Part shown: in pieces, positions 1 through 4,500 of the stretch
Numbering within the stretch: position 1 is the first letter of the stretch
Layout: the number at the start of each line of letters is the position of its first letter
Assembly (NCBI RefSeq): GCF_030382115.1
Contig: NZ_JAUDRJ010000003.1
Location: 5,831,985-5,866,189 of the forward strand
DNA length: 34,205 nucleotides
From: Nostoc sp. GT001
GTDB lineage: Bacteria; Cyanobacteriota; Cyanobacteriia; Cyanobacteriales; Nostocaceae
Direction of reading: 5' to 3'
Notes under the pieces: generated by a model
What the model was told of the DNA's origin: nothing
Database searches by the model: none
What the model saw: the letters and a program-made list of their open reading frames with translations, nothing else
Position numbers and translations under genes: made by a program

Positions 1-238
1 TTATTCCCGCCGCATCACTTTTCTAGAAGCGGCAAGAGTCCAGGGAATCCAATGGTTGAATTGGCTACACCTAAAGGAACAATCAATCTCTCCGAGGGAA
101 CGAATAAAAACGAATTGTGGGTCTAGGGGCGGTCGAACCCCAAAGTAGCCCAGACGAGCGGAGGAATCCCCACAATTCGGGTAGGACAGACCGTAATTGG
201 TCTGAGGTGTTCAGAATACACAAACTCTCGAAGAGAAA

Positions 239-808
239 ATGATTAGACACAGTAGACATACTAGTGAATCTTGGAGAGCTTTACCGTGGAAGAAATTCCG
301 CCGTAACCTTTTCCGCCTTCAAAAGCGCGTGTACAAAGCGGTTCAAGTTGGAGACAAGCGGAAAGCTAGGTCACTCCAAAAGCTTATTCTAAAATCCACC
401 TCGGCTCGATTTCTTGCAATTAGACAAGTATCTCAGCTAAATGCTGGTAAGAAGACGGCTGGTATTGATGGTAAGAAATCCCTTTCATTTGAGGAACGCT
501 TCAATTTAGAAGAACTACTGAAAATGAATAGCGGAAATTGGAAGCATCAAGGATTACGGGAAATCCCCATCCCTAAAAAGGACGGGACAACCAGAATGCT
601 TAAGATACCAACCATCGCGGATAGAGCTTGGCAATGCCTCGCAAAATATGCACTCGAACCAGCGCACGAAGCCACCTTCCACGCTAGGAGCTATGGGTTT
701 AGAACTGGGCGCTCTGCCCATGATGCACAAAAGTACATCTTTAGCAACCTAAGCTCAAACGCTAACGGAATAGAGAAACGAGTTATCGAACTCGATATCG
801 AGAAGTGC
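239..808 (+). CDS. Outer intron-encoded protein, N-terminal exon (RT domains 0-2)
   Basis: This is the 5' part (190 codons) of the outer intron's reverse transcriptase-maturase. It starts at ATG 239 after a purine-rich GAAGAGAAA. It contains the usual N-terminal segment (WRALPWKKFRRNLFRLQ), the TAGIDG motif, the RT-1 block with R-IPIPKKDG-TR-L-IPT, the YGFRTGRSAHDA block of RT-2, and ends in ELDIEKC, the strand that carries the first catalytic Asp of RT domain 3. The reading frame then enters the inner intron and stops a few codons later. The continuation (FDRINHS...) is found at 3211, so this is an exon and not a complete protein. Unless the inner intron is spliced, only a truncated peptide of about 195 residues without catalytic residues would be made. 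Confidence 0.85.
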
Positions 809-826
809 GTGCGCCGTGACAGTTAA

Positions 827-1265
827 CGCGGTATCCCCAATCAAATTGGGAGAGATTAAGAAGAACATCTCTAAGTCAACCAACTTACCTAGAGTCGAAA
901 GACAAAAGGAACAACCGCATGTTGGTAAAGCCGGAAATAGAGAGAAGGCGTTAAAACTAGAGTCCGGCAAGACTTGTGTGACAGGGTGAAGGTTAAACTA
1001 CCTGAAGCCTAATTCTGACGGTATATTCGATTGCCTATTCCTACAACGCCTAACAGGAATAATCGTTTGTGTGTAGTTTTAAACATTTGAACCACACAAC
1101 TTCTTCAAACGGAGTCAGCCAGCGATGAGATGGCTTAACGAATGAATGGGACACCTAAATCACACTACTACGTATCGAGTTAATAAAGCGCGGGATGACT
1201 TACGGGGGGCGACCCCTATGGTTACAGAGTTCTCATAGTAGTCCGAGAGCGGGAAAGCCGCTTAC
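827..1265 (+). ncRNA. 5' ribozyme region of the inner group II intron
   Basis: No gene is supported in this 439-nt stretch. It lies between the inner intron's 5' end and its ORF and should form domains I-III and the start of domain IV of the ribozyme. Short complementary runs such as CCCAATC/AATTGGG near 836-850 and GAGATT/AACATCTC near 850-875 fit domain I stems. The AACTTCTTC segment near 1098-1106 is a plausible EBS1 loop. A minus-strand open frame at 755-970 has no protein-like features and is not called. Confidence 0.6.
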
Positions 1266-3104
1266 ATGGCAAAGGAGAACAGGTATTCTTCACACTTATA
1301 TCGGGAGGTACGCGAGATGCGAAACGCCGAAACGGTTTTAAGTGTAATCCGAGACAGAGGAAATCGTGGTTTACCTCTGGATGATGTCTACAGGCAACTT
1401 TTCAATCCTAACCTGTACCTCTTGGCGTACAGTCGCATTTACAAAAATAATGGGGCAATGACGCAAGGAGTTACATCAGAGACTGTGGATGGGATGTCCA
1501 TCAAAAAGATTGAAAACCTCATAGAAGATATTCGCTATGAACGTTTTCGATGGACACCAGTACGGCGAATTAATATTCCCAAGAAAAATGGGAAAACGCG
1601 ACCACTGGGCATTCCCACTTGGAACGATAAATTGGTTCAGGAAGTAATACGTTTGATATTAGAAGCGTACTACGAACCCCAATTTTCTAACAGCAGTCAT
1701 GGTTTTCGACAAGAGCGTGGATGCCATACTGCATTAACAGTAATAGACCGCACTTGGCAAGGAACCAAATGGTTTATTGAAGGAGATATCCGTGGTTGTT
1801 TTGACAATATAGATCAGAAAATCTTAATGTCAATTCTCCGTGAGAAAATCCAAGATAATCGATTTTTGAGATTGATTGAAACCTTATTAACGGCAGGTTA
1901 CTGTGAGCAATGGAGATACCATTCTACACTGAGTGGAACGCCACAAGGGTCGATTGTCTCACCCATACTCGCAAATATTTACCTTGATAAGCTAGATAAT
2001 TTTGTCGAACAGACAGTCATTCCAGAATATACACGAGGTAAATGTCGGGCAGAAAATCGAGAGTATTCAAGGCTCGTAAAACTTGCTTGGTATTACAGGA
2101 AAAATGGACAATTCGATAAAGCGCGTCAACTGGAGATTAAATACCAGAAAATGCCCTCCAAAGATGTCCGTGACCCAGAATACAGAAGGCTAAATTACGT
2201 CCGCTATGCTGATGATTTTCTACTTGGTTTCATTGGTTCACTTCAAGAAGCAAAAGAAATTAAGGAAAAACTAAAGACATTCCTAGCCGACAATCTTCAG
2301 TTAGAAATGTCAGCAGAAAAGACCTTAATTACTAATGCCAGAAATGAAGCAGCGAACTTCTTAGGTTACGAAATCTTAGTTCAATATTCCGACAATAAGC
2401 ATACCAATGGTAAACGCTCACTTAATGGAATTACTGCACTAAGAATCCCAGCAAGTTTTGTAGAAGGAAAATGCGCTCTTTATATGAGGAATGGCAAACC
2501 CATTCATCGTCCTGAGTTAATAAATGACGATGATTTTACTATCATTAACATTTACCAATCAGAACTCAGAGGCTACGTACAATTCTACAGCCTTGCTCAA
2601 AACATTGCATGGCTCCGTAAACTCCAATGGGTTATGTGGAGTTCGTTAATGAAAACCCTTGCCTGTAAACACAAAACTAGCGTAGCCAAAATCTGCGCCA
2701 AGTACCAGAAGACGGTAAAACTTCCACAAGGAAGGAGAAAGTGTGTTGAAATAACCGTCCCAGTAGAAGGTAAGAAACCCTTGGTAACTCGTTTCGGGGG
2801 CATACAATTAAAACGCAACTTAAAAGCAACCATAGAAGATTTGCCACGAGTGCGAAAACCCGCGTTCAGAAATGAACTGATTAAACGGCTTCTTGCTTCG
2901 GAATGTGAGATTTGCGGGGCAACAGGTGATATTGAAGTTCACCATATTCATGCCCTTAAAGACCTCAAAATTAAAGGCAAGAAAGAAAAACCGCAATGGA
3001 TGCAAATCATGTCCGCACGTAGAAGAAAAACTCTCATGGTTTGCCCTCAATGCCATGATGCAATACACGCTGGTAAACCAATATCTCAACAAGTCTCGCG
3101 ATAA
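1266..3104 (+). CDS. Inner intron-encoded protein: reverse transcriptase-maturase-HNH endonuclease
   Basis: A 612-residue multifunctional protein that should help the inner intron splice and retrohome. RT blocks are in order: TVDGMS near residue 77, the R-INIPKKNGKTRPLGIPT block, SHGFRQERGCHTAL (RT-2), EGDIRGCFDNID (RT-3, first catalytic Asp), SGTPQGSIVSPILANIYLD (RT-4) and YVRYADDFLLGF (RT-5, YADD box). A charged insertion of about 60 residues separates RT-4 from RT-5. A maturase-type region follows, and the C-terminus is an HNH zinc-type nuclease (CEIC...VHHIHALKD...CPQCHDAIH). The start follows AAAGCCGCTTAC without a strong Shine-Dalgarno; ATG at 1266 is the first in the frame and gives a normal N-terminus. 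All catalytic motifs are present, so the element could be active. The sequence is clearly of a different lineage from the outer intron's protein. Confidence 0.93.
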   Translation: MAKENRYSSHLYREVREMRNAETVLSVIRDRGNRGLPLDDVYRQLFNPNLYLLAYSRIYKNNGAMTQGVTSETVDGMSIKKIENLIEDIRYERFRWTPVRRINIPKKNGKTRPLGIPTWNDKLVQEVIRLILEAYYEPQFSNSSHGFRQERGCHTALTVIDRTWQGTKWFIEGDIRGCFDNIDQKILMSILREKIQDNRFLRLIETLLTAGYCEQWRYHSTLSGTPQGSIVSPILANIYLDKLDNFVEQTVIPEYTRGKCRAENREYSRLVKLAWYYRKNGQFDKARQLEIKYQKMPSKDVRDPEYRRLNYVRYADDFLLGFIGSLQEAKEIKEKLKTFLADNLQLEMSAEKTLITNARNEAANFLGYEILVQYSDNKHTNGKRSLNGITALRIPASFVEGKCALYMRNGKPIHRPELINDDDFTIINIYQSELRGYVQFYSLAQNIAWLRKLQWVMWSSLMKTLACKHKTSVAKICAKYQKTVKLPQGRRKCVEITVPVEGKKPLVTRFGGIQLKRNLKATIEDLPRVRKPAFRNELIKRLLASECEICGATGDIEVHHIHALKDLKIKGKKEKPQWMQIMSARRRKTLMVCPQCHDAIHAGKPISQQVSR

Positions 3105-3116
3105 CAGAGTACTGGA

Positions 3117-3150
3117 GAGCCGTGTACCTGGAAACTCGTAAGCACGGTTC
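3117..3150 (+). ncRNA. Domain V of the inner group II intron
   Basis: The 34-nt hairpin begins GAGCCGTG and ends CACGGTTC, with a GAAA-like tetraloop region (TGGAAACT) and a bulge on the 3' side, which is the classic catalytic domain V layout. It lies 13 nt after the stop codon of the inner ORF. Domain VI follows at about 3158-3209, where CTAGTTAG pairs with CTAGCTAG and an unpaired A near 3204 is the likely branch point. Confidence 0.85.
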
Positions 3151-3210
3151 GGAGGGGGCTAGTTAGAAAAGGAGCCAAGGCTTGGAAACCTCGCTAGCTA
3201 GCTACCCACT

Positions 3211-4245
3211 TTCGACAGGATTAACCACTCAGCGATAATGGATGAACTCATCGCTCCCAAAGGCTTAAAACTCGGTATCTACCGATGCCTCAAGACTGGA
3301 GTAAACCCAGAATTCCCCGAACAGGGTACACCTCAAGGGGGAGTAGTTAGCCCATTACTAGCCAATATCGCACTCAACGGGATTGAGAGTATACACAGAT
3401 ACCAAACTGAAGGGTGGGCAAAAGGGACAATGAGCGAACCATCAGTCCGATACGCGGATGACATGGTTATTATACTTCGCCCCCAAGATGATGCGATAGA
3501 AATACTTGAAAGAATCAGCGAGTTCCTCCGCAAACGCGGAATGAATGTAAGCCAAAAGAAAACCAAAGTTACCGCCGCGACAGATGGGTTTGATTTCCTC
3601 GGCTGGCACTTCAAAGTGCAGAGCAACGGAAAGTTCAGAAGTACTCCCTCAGTGGACAACTTCAAAGCATTCCGTAAGAAAGTAAAACACATCGTCAACA
3701 ACTCGAATTATGGTGCTGCCACAAAGGCTGAGAAATTAGCCCCGGTAGTTAGAGGTTGGAGAAATTACCATAAGTTCTGTAAGATGGACGGGGCTAGAGA
3801 CTCGTTATACCACATCGAAACAAGAGCAAAAAAGGTATTTAACAAGGAAACCAAACTAAATCGCTACTCCAGTAAGAAATTACTAGACAAAGCATTCCCA
3901 GCAGTTCCCTACTCCGAACACAAACACGTCCCTGTCAAAGGAACTAAATCCCCCTATGACGGAGATACAGCCTACTGGAGTGAACGTAACAGTAAACTCT
4001 ATGACGGCGAAACCTCTAAAGCTCTTAAGAAGCAAAACCATAGATGTGCTTCCTGCGGTTTAAAATTCATCGATGAGGAACGGGTTCACCTACATCACAT
4101 CGACGGAAATCATGCCAACTGGAAAAAGAATAATCTTGAAGCAATTCATGAGAGTTGCCACGATTACAAGCACATGAGCAAAAGCACAAAGCTAAGAACA
4201 TCGGAAGCTGGGTGCGGTGAAAGTCGCACGCCCAGATTTAACTGA
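3211..4245 (+). CDS. Outer intron-encoded protein, C-terminal exon (RT 3-7, maturase, HNH)
   Basis: This is the 3' exon (344 codons plus stop) of the outer intron's RT. It begins FDRINHSAIMDEL, completing the LDIEKC-FDRI block of the upstream exon at 239-808, so the joined protein is 534 residues. It carries QGTPQGGVVSPLLANI (RT-4), VRYADDMVII (RT-5 with the YADD box), FLGWHF (RT-6/7), a maturase segment (VRGWRNYHKFC) and an HNH nuclease (CASCGLKF...VHLHHIDGNH...HESCHDYKH). An ATG at 3238 could start a shortened product, but that would lack the first catalytic Asp and probably be inactive as an RT. The last residues (SEAGCGESRTPRFN) are read from the domain V sequence, a common feature of annotated intron ORFs. 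Confidence 0.85.
   Translation, partial: FDRINHSAIMDELIAPKGLKLGIYRCLKTGVNPEFPEQGTPQGGVVSPLLANIALNGIESIHRYQTEGWAKGTMSEPSVRYADDMVIILRPQDDAIEILERISEFLRKRGMNVSQKKTKVTAATDGFDFLGWHFKVQSNGKFRSTPSVDNFKAFRKKVKHIVNNSNYGAATKAEKLAPVVRGWRNYHKFCKMDGARDSLYHIETRAKKVFNKETKLNRYSSKKLLDKAFPAVPYSEHKHVPVKGTKSPYDGDTAYWSERNSKLYDGETSKALKKQNHRCASCGLKFIDEERVHLHHIDGNHANWKKNNLEAIHESCHDYKHMSKSTKLRTSEAGCGESRTPRFN
4205..4238 (+). ncRNA. Domain V of the outer group II intron
   Basis: A 34-nt hairpin with a TGGGTGCG arm, GTGAAAGTC loop region and CGCACGCCCA return arm gives the typical AGC-triad-plus-GNAA-loop layout. It overlaps the end of the RT ORF. A domain VI-like stem follows at about 4248-4279, with GGGG pairing to CCCC and a candidate branch A about seven bases from the proposed 3' end. 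Confidence 0.8.
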
Positions 4246-4280
4246 GAGGTGCGGGGAATAATATCCCCCATCGACTCAAC

Positions 4281-4500
4281 CAATGAAATTGACCCCATGC
4301 CAATACTTTTTAAGAGCTTAACAGTTCAGGGAATTTATGTTGGCAGTCGAGAAATGTTTGAGGCGATGAATCAGGCGATGCAACAGCATCAAATCAAACC
4401 AATTATTGATCGAGTTTTCCCCTTTGCTGAAGCACGAGAGGCTTATCATTACCTCAAAAGTGCGGCTCACTTCGGTAAAGTCGTAATTCGTAATTCGTAA
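4281..4500 (+). CDS. Zinc-type alcohol dehydrogenase (MDR family), 3' exon after the intron
   Basis: The first 4281 bases of the window end in an intron, and from here the frame reads NEIDPMPILFKSLTVQGIYV, GSREMFEAMNQAM and IDRVFPFAEAREAYHYLKS, ending GKVVIRNS. This is the conserved C-terminus of NAD(P)-dependent zinc-binding alcohol dehydrogenase/quinone-reductase-like proteins: the end of the nucleotide-binding domain and the last catalytic-domain strand. About 72 residues remain; the other ~250 should lie upstream of the outer intron, outside this window. The exon is uninterrupted and well conserved to the eye, so the host gene may still be expressed by splicing. The final codons (GTAATTCGTAATTCGTAA) come from a simple repeat that runs into the following palindromic repeat. 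Confidence 0.82.

Follow-up and report, generated by a model that had tools for sequence, protein, structure and literature searches.

The closest described systems are the twintrons of Thermosynechococcus elongatus, in which TeI3 lies within TeI4 and identical inner introns occupy one conserved site in the reverse transcriptase (RT) open reading frame (ORF) of diverged outer introns (PMC2882425). According to the same account, the inner intron carries no ORF and is located between two start codons, and the intron-encoded protein (IEP) could be made without splicing (PMC2882425). For the archaeon Methanosarcina acetivorans, site-specific homing of group II introns into group II introns was reported, with nests of up to five; the arrangement is described there for this one archaeon, with flanking exons without coding ORFs (PMC4424553). 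In Trichodesmium, Tr.e.I7/I8 represents a group II twintron in a protein gene, for which sequential splicing was shown (PMC4649490).

The nested element analysed here is located in Nostoc sp. GT001, at the left end of what we call the window, i.e., the whole analysed stretch of 34,205 nucleotides (G000:C3:5831985-5866189; assembly of 7.9 Mb, 6 contigs). As in the cited T. elongatus twintrons, identical inner introns are found in diverged outers at one conserved site of the outer RT ORF; unlike these, the inner intron encodes an IEP of 612 aa and splits the RT-3 catalytic motif, and its lineage, termed RT3 lineage in the following, recurs there across 14 genomes and with two types of outer RT. 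With the M. acetivorans nests, as reported, it would share site-specific homing into other group II introns, whereas the RT3 lineage spans genera and the element lies in a dehydrogenase gene. Like Tr.e.I7/I8, it is a cyanobacterial group II intron within another one in a protein gene, here read from sequence alone; the Trichodesmium inner intron is described in domain I of the host ribozyme, however, while ours is located in the outer RT gene. Homing into other group II introns has thus already been published for Thermosynechococcus and Methanosarcina, and what appears new against these accounts is the specialisation on catalytic motifs of other introns. Our literature search, which was partial and does not establish absence from print, revealed no description of homing into RT-3, YADD, QGG or domain V motifs.

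A first-pass annotation of positions 1-4500 had claimed a complete group II intron in the RT gene of another one, inserted in the RT-3 block and lying in turn within a dehydrogenase gene, and the nested intron is confirmed as far as the sequence can tell, with both the RT frame and the dehydrogenase junction in register (Table 1). An ORF scan reproduced the break of the outer RT frame at 808, just after LDIEKC, its restart at 3211 with FDRI and the 612-aa RT ORF in between, and both RF00029 matches (Rfam), which exceed the gathering score of 40, lie where the annotation had placed a pair of domains V. The halves of the outer RT form one protein, covering RVT_1 positions 1-78 and then 79-205 (Pfam). 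Two uninterrupted outer copies of the same genome (L017 and L018, 537-aa frames, 86-88% DNA identity to the window's outer intron) run straight through 808|3211; the two flanks, suspected as a possible pitfall of matching different RTs, therefore belong to the same protein. The L018 outer RT has QGE where the other copies have QGG.

Table 1. Positions of the nested element and its parts in the window.
Feature	Position	Strand	Basis or remark
Outer group II intron, part within the window	1..4281	+	5' 324 positions (one N) at L009:4677-5000; 7 homologues, RF00029
Outer IEP, 5' half	239..808	+	Pfam RVT_N and first part of RVT_1; aligns to the 537-aa L017/L018 frames
Inner group II intron, 2402 nt	809..3210	+	between Cys and Phe codons of LDIEKC|FDRI; empty/filled comparison
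IBS2 candidate ATATCG (-14 to -9)	795..800	+	6 pairs with CGGTAT, one G-U; tentative
IBS1 AAGTGC (-6 to -1), RT-3 codons for Lys and Cys	803..808	+	pairs with EBS1
EBS2 candidate CGGTAT	1019..1024	+	tentative
EBS1 ACATTT	1083..1088	+	5/6 pairs with IBS1; lineage-level covariation at the same aligned position
Inner IEP, 612 aa: RT (YADD), maturase, HNH	1266..3104	+	RVT_1, Intron_maturas2, AI2M-like_HNH above Pfam cut-off
Inner intron domains V-VI	3115..3210	+	RF00029, 51 bits
Outer IEP, 3' half	3211..4245	+	rest of RVT_1, GIIM; HNH below Pfam cut-off
Outer intron domains V-VI	4203..4281	+	RF00029 52.8 bits at 4203-4280; end at 4281 from homologues
Zinc-type dehydrogenase exon 2	4282..4500	+	ADH_zinc_N_2; 7 intronless homologues

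Since the comparison of filled and empty sites leaves a single parse, the borders of the inner intron are exact. It starts with GTGCG, in agreement with GUGYG, its removal rejoins the outer RT in frame, and it lies wholly within the outer intron, as defines a twintron. Group II introns usually end in AY. The inner intron ends in ..CACT instead, as do 19/19 insertions with an F-D-coding 3' flank, and because the other tested features agree with a group II intron, this end was not counted as excluding one. Both introns of the window end one base past AC (inner ..CACT at 3205-3210, outer ..CAACC at 4276-4281), the terminal C of the outer being present in 5/5 outer copies compared. The 5' 457 nt of the inner intron did not fold with significantly greater stability than shuffled sequence (z -1.57; 8/100 shuffles equally stable), and no argument here draws on this fold.

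The ends of the outer intron were fixed by seven dehydrogenase homologues from relatives in which the gene is intronless (5' AGAGGA|GTGCG, 3' CTCAACC|AATGAA). Its 5' end, which the annotation had advised seeking further left, was located at L009:4677, 324 positions outside the window, and its 3' end lies at 4281, so that the proposed extent of 1-4500 holds for the twintron up to this point, the remainder being dehydrogenase exon 2. With a GUGCG start, a domain V and an exact insertion, the outer intron measures 4605 positions, or 2203 without the inner one; the end of its ORF overlaps its domain V.

Dehydrogenase exon 1 (L009:3882-4676, left of the window) reveals the domains ADH_N and ADH_zinc_N, and exon 2 the end of ADH_zinc_N_2 (Pfam). 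Near L009 3965, exon 1 carries one extra base compared with 7/7 homologues, which may mean that the gene is broken or that a sequencing indel has remained; the latter is suggested by two copies of the element in this genome, called W (in the window) and D, which differ by single-base indels or N with zero substitutions. Given this extra base and the dehydrogenase paralogues in the same genome (66% and 57%), dependence of the dehydrogenase on the twintron is unproven. The strict three-layer dependence proposed at first, from dehydrogenase to outer to inner maturase, is further weakened by the uninterrupted outer RTs elsewhere in the genome, and is doubtful since the outer IEP could come in trans from these two copies.

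What the first annotation did not contain is that copies of this inner intron occupy one and the same codon boundary in outer introns that differ considerably. Loci found via the inner protein alone provided 21 readable 5' borders of the RT3 lineage, L078 and weaker protein matches being left out of the border counts, and 20 of them are located at this boundary between the Cys and Phe codons, one (copy D) with an extra base just before it. A D-I-x-K-C plus GTGYG pattern matched 29 times, in 17 of the 217 family genomes, against 2 matches of the reversed control; 26 of these matches, from 14 genomes, are RT3-lineage introns directly after LDIEKC or DADIAKC, the motifs of the two outer RT types, and three are unrelated. 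Of these 26, seven came from the pattern alone, which presupposes the site, and all seven lie at the ends of short contigs with the rest of the intron unseen; with the pattern-found loci included, 27/28 borders are at the site. The sole off-site copy, from Brasilonema sp. UFV-L1, resides in a transposase gene (Transposase_20, IS110 type). Among 22 readable 3' borders, 19 resume at F-D, one is the Brasilonema exception, and two (both G118) pick up the outer gene some 121 residues further downstream, which indicates that deletion or recombination also occurs. A readable 5' border was not found in three RT3-lineage copies (L050, L056/L150 and L061; L056 has lost the first 13 nt of the intron), nor in the partial relatives L073, L075, L076 and L077.

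Two arrangements at RT3-lineage loci were observed apart from these counts. In plasmid3 of Calothrix sp. NIES-4105 (L040 1457-7902), a single outer RT gene seems to have taken up two distinct group II introns, the RT3-lineage one at residue 190 and, near residue 158, a second, complete one. In Microseira wollei (L050), the ORF of the RT3-lineage inner intron is split by a segment that contains a group II RT in antisense orientation.

The uninterrupted D-I-x-K-C-F-D motif, searched as a DNA pattern, occurs in 132/208 family genomes (seven reversed-control matches; the matches are pattern matches only), so the niche looks large and renewable. Among 386 genomes sampled across the phylum, with at most three candidates scored per genome, matches at E<=1e-100 were confined to G000, the genome of the window, and G077, and no relative of the inner intron was found in the viral contigs searched. 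Relatives with 60-75% identity are present in metagenome-assembled genomes named Armatimonadetes, Nitrospirota, Chloroflexi (including Anaerolineae) and Pyrinomonadaceae, with unreadable insertion sites.

The preference for this site appears to be reflected in the intron RNA. After alignment of 15 introns of the RT3 lineage and of two sister lineages described below (YADD and DV), a loop near nt 275-283 reads (G/A)CATT(T/G) in the RT3 lineage, GTCGTC in the YADD lineage, and ACTTTC, GGTTTC, AGTTTC or CCTTTC in the DV lineage, and on average it pairs best with the six upstream bases of its own lineage (AARTGC or AAATGT, GATGAY and GAAANN, respectively). Own-target pairs were found at 77/84 positions in 14 of the 15 rows, the ectopic row being left out, against a mean of 53.8 with shuffled partners, and 77 was reached in 0/20,000 shuffles; this test overstates the strength, since the loop was selected on the basis of a pairing scan and the rows of any one lineage are related to one another. 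Weak rows are DV_L067 and DV_L071 with 4/6 pairs, while the four RT3 rows scored show 5-6 of 6. The window's loop leaves the -1 C unpaired, and GCATTT in L038 and L039 gives 6/6. We take 1083-1088 of the window as EBS1 and 803-808 as IBS1.

In the window's genome, the inner intron is present in four copies on two contigs, each inside an outer intron; these copies and its 5' border in 13 other family genomes argue that the nesting is not due to chance. The inner introns of copies W and P are identical at 2401/2401 aligned positions (5 gap columns), whereas their outers agree at 271/300 positions upstream and 527/579 downstream. Scytonema tolypothrichoides VB-61278 harbours four inner copies identical at 2399/2399 positions in four different outers, which are 47-79% identical over about 100 aa upstream. 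Similarly, the four inner copies of Calothrix sp. NIES-4105 agree at 2404-2405 of 2405 positions, L042 and L044 in matching outers and the remaining two in different ones. Between L038 and L046, the similarity (2431 bp at 99.7%) covers the inner intron and extends a few bases into the flanks, with the outers matching at 46/96 residues. Identical or nearly identical inners in differing outers are what independent homing predicts. Some copies are alike as composites: W and a further copy, A, are identical over 4604/4604 positions plus one N with unrelated flanks, so that both probably moved recently, and L042 and L044 share 4.66 kb at 99.7%. Judged by these pairs, composites of outer and inner intron look mobile as one unit as well; alternatively, the outer may have inserted first and the inner intron homed into it in a separate, second event.

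That the inner intron acquired the RT-3 site repeatedly, recently and independently, as read from these comparisons, had to be weighed against other histories. A single ancestral insertion, inherited vertically while the outers diverged, would account for nearly all readable insertions being at one codon boundary. It has, in our judgement, hardly any chance of being correct, as the Scytonema inners are identical in outers differing by 21-53%, inner and outer histories disagree, and uninterrupted and interrupted outer copies coexist in the window's genome. Homologous recombination or gene conversion between outers, in place of retrohoming, finds its best case in L148 and L149, with displaced 3' flanks and about 6.3 kb shared at 97% identity; conversion needs homology of the flanks, however, of which L038 and L046 have next to none, and together with the exact borders this makes it improbable. 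That the nesting results from an assembly chimera or chance similarity can practically be dismissed: N and indel noise do occur near the window start and in copy D, but four copies on two contigs and the same junction in other family genomes speak against it.

An inert twintron, the inner intron of which no longer splices and in which outer intron and dehydrogenase are pseudogenes, deserves more attention. The extra base in dehydrogenase exon 1, the broken inner RT frame of copy D and the loss of the outer 3' end in copy P fit such decay. In copies W and A, however, the inner ORF is open, domain V and EBS1 are present, and their identity suggests recent movement; moreover, the differences between W and D point to sequencing indels, and the same explanation may apply to the dehydrogenase indel. 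We therefore regard inertness as unlikely, though not far-fetched.

Related introns point in the same direction for other motifs. In a quick tree, the IEPs of the YADD and DV lineages form one clade with the RT3 lineage (SH-aLRT 100), a clade that also takes in the relatives from other phyla with unreadable sites, contains several long branches, and remains unchanged by two mislabelled rows (RT3_L056_1 is an outer RT fragment and out_L040_1 an inner IEP). Introns of the YADD lineage are inserted directly after the YADD codons (FADD in one target) in 5/5 cases read (L066, L072, L074, L113 and L115, the last found by a YADD pattern only); removal of the intron restores the RT frame in L066 and L074, and outer RT similarity is present on both sides in L153 and L155. 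Four of nine YADD pattern matches belong to this lineage and five are unrelated; with seven matches in the reversed control, the pattern alone proves nothing, and the proof is the intron sequence. The YADD-lineage intron of L115 (1513-2157, G061) is only about 645 nt long with at most an IEP remnant, and would need a maturase in trans.

Members of the DV lineage interrupt domain V two bases past its GAAA tetraloop in 7/7 cases read (L067-L071, L148 and L149). The domain V split in L069 is that of an RT3-lineage intron, which suggests a nest of three, the host of this RT3-lineage intron lying off the contig. L148 (3737-9938) and L149 (3313-9497), both from G118, display one outer that carries two introns, one of the RT3 lineage in the RT gene and one of the DV lineage in domain V; the segment of this outer RT from RT-3 to past YADD is missing. 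A more distant QGG lineage is found at GTPQGG(V/I) in 11/14 pattern matches, with three unrelated and one match in the reversed control, and by our reading QGG(V/I)(V/I)SP is rejoined in frame in L081 and L082. One relative of this lineage (L080, from 819) is ectopic, located at CCGCAAGGTGACGTTAG, outside the usual GTPQGG motif.

Taken together, the inner element is very probably a complete mobile group II intron, the RNA of which recognises the DNA encoding the RT-3 motif of other group II introns' RTs. The sequence basis of this reading comprises an insertion that falls exactly and in frame between the Cys and Phe codons of D-I-x-K-C|F-D, the complementarity of the EBS1 loop to the Lys-Cys codons of the target, and an open frame encoding RT, maturase and HNH domains. 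The inner ribonucleoprotein would reverse-splice into the RT-3 motif and be copied by target-primed reverse transcription; the inner RNA would then splice out, so that the outer RT could be made, and the outer intron would splice out of the host gene in turn, while composites might also spread as one unit. By analogy with established group II intron biology, we infer splicing, retrohoming, the splicing order and the protein dependence. The RT-3 motif may serve as a safe harbour, since an outer RT cannot freely change it without losing its catalytic site, and the inner lineage looks like a parasite specialised on other parasites. On balance, we also lean towards a wider reading, namely a clade specialised on group II introns as hosts, whose sister lineages have reprogrammed EBS1 to RT-3 (K-C|F-D), YADD and the GAAA of domain V, joined by a separate QGG lineage, with hyperparasitism two deep, probably three deep, and with targets that the hosts cannot easily mutate without losing function.

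Bacterial twintrons are described genome by genome in the work cited above, whereas one lineage appears to follow a rule across genera here: it sits at catalytic-motif codons in the RT of its own kind, which would make it a testable model of hyperparasitism among retroelements. The lineages would also offer a set of naturally reprogrammed EBS1 loops of known target, and the outer element could have its mobility controlled through layered dependence on splicing.
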